A stretch of 64,000 nt of DNA, from the NCBI RefSeq assembly GCF_947492555.1, contig NZ_CANLNE010000001.1:620001-684000 (forward strand), written 5' to 3'. Below, piece after piece: positions 14,740 through 15,143 of this stretch; the stretch's first letter is position 1; each line of letters opens with the position of its first letter. The notes under the pieces were generated by a model. That model did no database searches. It worked only from the letters and a program-made list of their open reading frames with translations, and was not told the origin of the DNA. This DNA is from an uncultured Roseobacter sp. GTDB lineage: Bacteria; Pseudomonadota; Alphaproteobacteria; Rhodobacterales; Rhodobacteraceae. A program made the translations under genes and the position numbers.

Positions 14740-14754
14740 GTTCTATATTTGTTC
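14740..14754. promoter_or_regulatory. Alphaproteobacterial SOS (LexA) box
   Basis: GTTC-TATATTT-GTTC is a perfect match to the GTTC-N7-GTTC direct repeat bound by LexA in alphaproteobacteria. It ends two bases before the ATG of the DnaE2 OB-fold fragment and lies about 109 bases upstream of the divergent ferredoxin start. The AT-rich spacer TATATTT could double as a promoter -10 region. Confidence 0.75.
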
Positions 14755-14756
14755 TC

Positions 14757-15143
14757 ATGCGTGTGATGACTGCCCTCCCTGCTGACCAGCAACCGCAGAC
14801 TGCGAAAGGACACTGGCCACGCCCGCCCGCCTGTCTGGTGGCCGCGGATCTGCATCTGCCGCCGGTCAATGCACGCATCACGGTGGCCGGGCTGGTGATC
14901 CTGCGCCAACGCCCAGGCACCGCCAAGGGCGTGATCTTCATTACCCTCGAAGATGAAACCGGCGTGGTGAACGTGATCATCTGGCGGCATATCTACGAAA
15001 AATTCCGCCGGGCCGTCATTGCGGGCCGCCTGCTGCGCGTCACTGGCCGTTTGCAACGTGCCCATGCGGTCACCCATGTGCTGGCCGAAGATGTGGAAGA
15101 TATCTCTCCCATGCTCGACTCATTGGTAAACCCGGAAAGCTGA
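14757..15143 (+). pseudogene. C-terminal OB-fold remnant of error-prone polymerase DnaE2
   Basis: About 128 residues from ATG 14757. The body (ITVAGLVILRQRPGTAKGV, then FITLEDETGVVNVIIW, then LLRVTGRLQ and THVLAEDVEDI) matches the C-terminal OB-fold of DnaE2/ImuC, a polymerase of about 1,000 residues. The polymerase domains are absent, and sequence immediately upstream is the SOS box and the ferredoxin promoter, so no longer coding region is split here. The frame is intact with no internal stop. It is either a decayed copy or a retained stand-alone OB protein under SOS control. A second ATG at 14766 is a possible start. Confidence 0.7.

Follow-up and report, generated by a model that had tools for sequence, protein, structure and literature searches.

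A split DnaE2 with a separate, probably SOS-regulated OB-fold gene in marine Roseobacter-group bacteria

The 64,000-nucleotide stretch of Roseobacter DNA analyzed here (the window) contains a short gene that encodes little more than the C-terminal OB fold of DnaE2 (ImuC), with a LexA-type box placed almost on its start codon. The first-pass annotation took the polymerase domains to be missing and proposed either an SOS mutagenesis gene whittled down to a damage-inducible OB module, possibly interfering with or assisting the full ImuC, or a recent relic.

The stand-alone OB gene and the DnaE2 core it complements

The gene is a stand-alone open frame at 14757-15143 (+), running from an ATG at 14757 to a TGA that ends at 15143 and encoding 128 residues with no internal stop. 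Residues 26-123 aligned with positions 942-1039 of the 1047-position NCBIfam profile NF004225 (error-prone DNA polymerase, DnaE2 type; E 3.9e-30), and an OB fold was detected with Pfam PF01336 (E 6.4e-12), bearing out the initial description of an uninterrupted frame that matches only the C-terminal OB fold of DnaE2. Membership of DnaE2/ImuC was defined by PHP, Pol3, (HhH)2, and OB domains and a score at or above the NF004225 family cut-off of 939 bits; the 128-residue protein alone reached 104.7 bits, through its OB part only. Nor was it recognized as a bacterial SSB by the SSB-type NCBIfam models, the best of which gave E 0.008 (NF005580, 16.3 bits against a cut-off of 254; NF005551, 15.5 bits against 575). 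An AlphaFold2 model (mean pLDDT 82.7) contains a complete five-stranded OB fold, the fold proper comprising residues 40-115 (14874-15101, +), with residues 1-17 mostly of low confidence. A Foldseek search of the PDB with this model returned the OB-fold proteins Stn1, RPA, aspartyl-, asparaginyl-, and lysyl-tRNA synthetases, and ExoVII.

Searching the genome with the DnaE2 profile identified three places: the 128-residue frame, a weaker DnaE-type match on contig 1 that is taken to be the replicative DnaE1, and a DnaE2 core on contig 2. The core is an open frame of 980 residues that scores 1214.6 bits, over the cut-off, and spans profile positions 5-946 of 1047. It retains PPDIDVDFEH, a motif with a catalytic role, and ends shortly after LKAHPLALLRQRLTP, where fused relatives run on into the OB fold. 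The 128-residue protein supplies positions 943-1039 of 1047; together, the two proteins cover nearly all DnaE2 profile positions and as a pair qualify as a DnaE2/ImuC. DnaE2 has been split in this organism, and its polymerase domains are separated from the OB fold, not lost. The idea of a whittled SOS gene is thus right in describing a stand-alone, DnaE2-derived, and probably SOS-regulated module, and wrong in regarding the polymerase as gone: it resides on another contig. Because the only DnaE2 over the cut-off lacks exactly the OB domain, this genome has no full ImuC for the OB protein to assist or hinder.

Two peptides distinguish the split from the fused form. The motif WPxPP precedes the fold in 97 of 107 stand-alone OBs (30 + 77 proteins, leaving out loci L197, L222, and L223) and in none of 52 fused DnaE2s; here it reads WPRPP (residues 20-24; 14814-14828, +) and may have a docking role. 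Fused DnaE2s end in SRDFH in 30 of 38 displayed C-termini (of 52), a tail that could be a partner-binding peptide. It is absent from both the core and the OB protein of this genome, so more than a simple cut distinguishes the split form, and the gain of WPxPP and absence of SRDFH are candidates for altered contacts. Twenty of the 107 stand-alone OBs end in DQP or EQP.

The OB gene is flanked by two genes named here by assumption from their sequences: a divergent 2Fe-2S ferredoxin (14308-14631, -) and a convergent HtrA/DegP-like serine protease (15197-16675, -). An inverted repeat seen by eye between the convergent OB and HtrA-like genes (15154-15175) may be a terminator. The ferredoxin is a conserved neighbor; its motif lies on the divergent strand upstream of the OB gene at 29 of 30 relatives' loci and at 70 of 75 GTDB loci, a count that leaves out five loci too close to a contig end.

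The LexA-type box and the OB promoter

The box, GTTCTATATTTGTTC, occupies 14740-14754 (+) and, as originally reported, ends two bases before the ATG at 14757. Its pattern, GTTC-N7-GTTC, is one that we take to be the alphaproteobacterial LexA operator. The motif is not rare by itself: perfect copies number two in the window against 1.61 expected, and 90 genome-wide against 100 for a reversed control pattern, so it is position and conservation that carry the weight. The other perfect copy in the window (31266-31280) is expected by chance. A perfect box lies just upstream of 29 of 30 OB orthologues in relatives and before 77 of the best 80 OB loci in a scan of GTDB genomes; a search for boxed orthologues had been proposed at the outset, and they were found at nearly every locus. 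The corresponding chance level, for a perfect box in either direction in random 260-base stretches of the window, is 0.7%. The three GTDB loci without a perfect box are L197, which starts 10 bases from a contig end; L222, which has no box; and L223, where the match sits in a 982-codon frame and is perhaps fused. Measured to the start codon picked for each locus, the gap from box to start in the 77 boxed GTDB loci is two bases in 50 and one base in 12, placing 62 of 77 at one or two bases.

Perfect boxes also stand ~30 and ~110 bases upstream of the lexA and recA profile matches, respectively, in the same genome, making the motif a plausible LexA operator here; the OB promoter shares GTTC-N7-GTTC with both genes. 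The OB gene is probably under SOS control, with LexA expected to bind the box and release it upon DNA damage. A chance motif at a gene outside the SOS response would agree with the genome-wide count, which is no higher than that of the reversed control, but is very improbable given the near-fixed spacing of the conserved box, its retention in G051 although the OB locus there is AT-rich, and the presence of the same motif before lexA, recA, imuA, and imuB.

The sequence around the box has further regularities. Of 106 loci with a box, 83 have a TTG whose distance to the box start is 18 or 19 bases; column conservation across the box-bearing OB loci gives a spacer that reads mostly TATnTTT. In the window, these correspond to a putative -35 element, TTGCGA (14722-14727, +), and a putative -10 element, TATATT (14744-14749, +), within the operator spacer. 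The arrangement suggests that the -10 element of the OB promoter lies inside the operator, and because only two bases separate the box from the ATG, transcription would begin at or near the start codon and yield a leaderless mRNA.

The box had also been assigned to the promoter of the divergent ferredoxin, an assignment that comparison with relatives does not sustain. The ferredoxin most likely starts at a GTG near 14631, which puts the box ~110 bases upstream, and relatives without the OB gene and the box still have the ferredoxin along with the sequence upstream of it; control of the ferredoxin by the box is unsupported. The ferredoxin adjoins the HtrA-like gene in nine OB-less relatives. 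For an examination of empty sites, 14 regions were taken and the nine with both flanks, all from genomes with fused DnaE2, were used; the gap between ferredoxin and HtrA-like gene in these nine contains no perfect box and no OB match better than E 0.7. In G014 (L319), the two flanking genes enclose a box in which a single base is changed and, after it, a start codon that is altered as well, beside the conserved ferredoxin upstream region. This scar indicates that the OB gene was once there.

Distribution, history, and constraint

The OB protein and the DnaE2 profile were used to search 119 related genomes, 71 of them in the same family. DnaE2 matches over the cut-off either end at profile positions 938-962 or reach 1037 or beyond. 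Among the 71 family genomes, 30 have both halves, one has the core only, one has the OB only, and 39 have neither (Fisher p 9.8e-18, uncorrected for kinship); the stand-alone OB occurs in 31 (30 + G051) and the truncated core in 31. Thirty-five of the 39 genomes with neither half have a fused DnaE2 over the cut-off. In three more (G021, G026, and G037), no DnaE2 exceeds the cut-off, and in G039 an OB match near a contig end was judged to be a fused fragment. G062 has the core and no OB match; an assembly gap is the likely cause, since its xseA is cut by the contig start and its sister G045 has the OB gene on that side, ~2.8 kb from xseA. G069 (7 contigs) contains the OB gene and split-type imuA and imuB with no DnaE2 over the cut-off and is, as far as seen, a real exception. 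G053, which by its plasmid NC_009957.1 corresponds to Dinoroseobacter shibae, combines a chromosomal split system with a complete plasmid-borne imuA-imuB-dnaE2 cassette.

Several apparent splits were rejected by judgment from coordinates. The two pieces in G027 lie at both ends of a 217,585-base contig and were taken for a single fused gene interrupted by the point where a circular record begins; the matches in G039 and G114 fall within 200 bases of a contig end, on the upstream side; and G040 has a partial fused gene. A second, weak OB match in G004 was likewise not accepted as stand-alone; by eye it belongs to a broken fused dnaE2 (L129; G004:C1:3740500-3746500), in a genome that also has an intact fused dnaE2.

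The best 80 GTDB loci are assigned to Rhodobacteraceae, to its genera, or, for a few assembled genomes, to Alphaproteobacteria; the genera include Ruegeria, Shimia, Roseovarius, Roseivivax, Marivita, Gemmobacter, Planktomarina, and others. A scan of viral contigs yielded six loci and no stand-alone OB, five being in frames of 1022-1146 residues and one in a 636-residue frame near a contig end. A split DnaE2 with a separate OB gene is found in many marine Roseobacter-group bacteria. Every OB gene in the family genomes sampled is intact, and almost all are boxed, so the early suggestion of a recent relic does not hold.

All 31 truncated cores fall on one side of a single branch (SH-aLRT 100) in a midpoint-rooted tree of 83 DnaE2 rows, a topology that fits one fission. 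The host phylogeny was approximated with a quick single-gene XseA tree of 68 of the 71 family genomes, which omits G037 and G051 (no xseA match) and G041 (fused DnaE2, no stand-alone OB) and keeps G062, G039, and G040 with partial XseA. The split trait is scattered on this tree, requiring 19 changes, with 40 of 500 shuffles giving as few or fewer. The scatter fits repeated loss and replacement by fused cassettes, some of them plasmid-borne; 18 of the 20 plasmid matches listed are annotated as error-prone polymerases. Core and OB are gained and lost together: across 13 independent core contrasts on well-supported branches, the OB is concordant in 11-13 and opposed in none (sign test, p 0.00024-0.00098, depending on pairing), although xseA, the gene behind the tree, is itself close to the OB gene (2.6 kb in the window). 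The concordance is not explained by physical linkage of the two halves: core and OB are on different contigs in this genome and, in G009, G016, G031, G052, and G063, are separated by 0.39 Mb or more on a single contig, allowing for circularity. The co-loss includes imuA and imuB, and therefore shows membership of a system, rather than contact with DnaE2 itself.

A comparison of dN/dS had also been proposed. Values for the OB gene were 0.040, 0.069, 0.084, 0.094, and ~0.08 (G011/G013) in the five closest within-genus pairs and ranged from 0.04 to 0.35 in the ten pairs with the lowest dS (0.10-0.35). In the 2296 pairs with dS <1, the median was 0.38 and the maximum 0.85, with dS in this set probably compressed by codon bias and saturation. 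All ratios are below 1, but they are not uniformly low. OB identity at a given core identity was considered the better test of constraint; it omits G062, G051, and F_G098, which have no OB domain to compare. Values for split and fused proteins were 0.694 vs. 0.688 at core identities of 0.65-0.70, 0.741 vs. 0.728 at 0.70-0.75, and 0.813 vs. 0.810 at 0.75-0.80. Separation has not measurably relaxed the OB fold, whose divergence relative to the core is no faster than in fused proteins.

A dispersed mutasome and its place among known systems

Homologues of ImuA, ImuB, and DnaE2 are all present in this genome: imuA at C1:147948 (a weak match, E 2.1e-13), imuB at C2:571147, and the core at C2:543654, with the OB gene at C1:634.8 kb. 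They do not form one cassette, as imuA is on the other contig and ~25 kb separate imuB from the core. In the fused genomes G003, G004, and G053 (plasmid), imuB directly precedes dnaE2. The search for a cassette in relatives, proposed at the outset, shows it to be dispersed in the split genomes and the OB gene to belong to it. A profile of three ImuBs placed ImuB away from the core in all 31 truncated-core genomes and also located one in G069. With a profile of three ImuAs, weak matches put ImuA at a further separate locus in 30 of these 31 genomes and likewise in G069; G051 (74% complete) had no ImuA match. Split-type ImuB is matched in two pieces on one contig with an insertion between them in 31 of 32 genomes, the pieces in G058 being on two contigs. 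The insertion is absent from the three cassette ImuBs used as the profile. In the present genome, the split-type imuB (G000:C2:571147-572808; L134:3648-5309) is a single gene with its own perfect box. A 2006 paper reportedly dealt with dispersal of the cassette.

Each dispersed gene tends to carry a box. A perfect one precedes imuA in 20 of 20 examined (of 31 genomes with the split-type gene) and imuB in 10 of 10 examined (of 32), and 29 of the 31 cores have a box that departs from the pattern at no more than one position, eight of these boxes being perfect. In random size-matched stretches of the window, perfect boxes occur at 0.2-0.7% and boxes with at most one mismatch at 4% (103 bases, the core size). 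Read relative to transcription, the box is GAAC-N7-GAAC in imuA (20/20), imuB (10/10), and the core (28/29, the exception being G052), unlike the OB gene, where it reads GTTC-N7-GTTC.

The OB domain of known C-family polymerases handles the single-stranded template. We favor, with a probability of about 0.72, a reading of these sequence comparisons in which a split DnaE2 has the OB protein as an SOS-induced subunit, working in trans within an ImuA-ImuB complex. On this reading, dnaE2 was cut directly behind the (HhH)2/clamp-binding region in an ancestor within the family. Its catalytic portion remained as a DnaE2 ending before the OB fold, its OB portion came to lie beside the ferredoxin gene under its own LexA-type promoter, and imuA and imuB occupy two other loci, where each has a box of its own. 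Upon DNA damage, all four promoters would be freed of LexA, and the OB protein would join the truncated DnaE2 in trans in an ImuA-ImuB-DnaE2core-OB mutasome, guiding the single-stranded template, a role also attributed to the fused OB. With every piece under LexA control, the genes would regain the co-expression once given by the operon. In a mutasome survey (PMC12926913), modeled ImuB contacts fall on the PHP and (HhH)2 regions of DnaE2; both precede the cut, and contact with ImuB would thus not require the OB. Counted against the split-subunit reading are the OB of G069 without a DnaE2 over the cut-off, the core of G062 without an OB, the coexistence in G053 of the split system with a complete plasmid cassette, and the uneven dN/dS.

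A more specific and tentative proposal is that the OB, as a subunit able to dissociate, acts as a gate on the polymerase: the core would be unable to hold its template until joined by the damage-induced OB. Mutagenesis would then need coincident firing of four promoters (imuA, imuB, core, and OB) and would be switch-like and variable from cell to cell; as part of the same proposal, other polymerases could borrow the OB, or it could be passed on at the fork. Somewhat less likely still is an independent SOS single-strand-binding or regulatory protein, which would protect single-stranded DNA or act with ImuB, RecA, or DnaE1, while the truncated DnaE2 worked without any OB. It would accommodate the new N-terminal WPxPP peptide, the retention of OB, imuA, and imuB in G069, and the existence of some published DnaE2 and DnaE3 proteins without an OB domain (PMC3919608). 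An independent protein would not be expected to follow the truncated core in 11-13 of 13 independent contrasts, to be missing with its box from all nine two-flank sites of fused-DnaE2 genomes (no perfect box, no OB match better than E 0.7), or to have kept its divergence relative to the core unchanged since the fission. An antagonist, a free OB competing with complete DnaE2 for DNA or partners and damping mutagenesis, is conceivable in G053 with its plasmid-borne complete DnaE2, but this is the only one of 31 family genomes with a stand-alone OB to have a fused DnaE2 over the cut-off; usually there is nothing to antagonize, and we consider this role highly unlikely. Least probable of all is a decaying C-terminal dnaE2 fragment with a leftover box: the frame is short, the remainder of the gene is absent at the locus, and dN/dS reaches 0.35 among the ten closest pairs, yet none of the stand-alone copies listed has an internal stop, the box is conserved, no dN/dS among the 2296 pairs reaches 1 and the five closest within-genus pairs lie at 0.04-0.09, OB-to-core divergence equals that of fused proteins, and real decay looks different, as in the G014 scar and the broken second dnaE2 of G004 (by eye).

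The literature searched, with many subscription papers and all supplements outside its scope, contained no description of a separate OB gene. An OB domain is detected in at least 97% of C-family polymerases (PMC3919608), and its nearly constant covalent attachment makes it difficult to examine its contribution independently of the enzyme. In the bacteria described here, which include the model organism D. shibae, evolution has separated the OB from the polymerase and kept both halves, so what the OB contributes to error-prone synthesis can be tested by deletion or addition of a single small gene. For D. shibae, LexA sites have been predicted (PMC6473078, in whose main text the terms polymerase, dnaE, imu, and OB-fold are absent) and the plasmid cassette is mentioned in PMC9426580; the alphaproteobacterial SOS core includes the cassette (PMC3323433). 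The split system turns this mutagenesis cassette into four separately boxed genes that tend to persist and vanish together.

The closest parallels share parts of this organization. Several DnaE2s reported by Timinskas et al. (PMC3919608) are, like the truncated cores, polymerase cores without OB and without CTD; the passages on this point note the absent domain and mention no separate OB gene, and the split system may explain such sequences. PolC illustrates that the OB of C-family polymerases can change place, although in PolC it is still covalently attached, at the other end of the core (PMC3919608). Stand-alone ImuB-C in DnaE2B mutasomes (PMC12926913) is a further mutasome domain that exists as a separate protein, but it is a different domain in other bacteria; OB-fold, OB domain, and Rhodobacter do not occur in the main text of that survey. 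The nearest relative is the ImuA-ImuB-DnaE2 mutasome. All three components are present here, with a LexA-type box before each in nearly all cases examined, whereas the loci are separate instead of forming one operon, the OB fold is a separate gene, and ImuB matches in two pieces around an insertion. The conserved, split-off, and probably SOS-induced OB subunit of DnaE2 is most likely part of a variant of this known mutasome.
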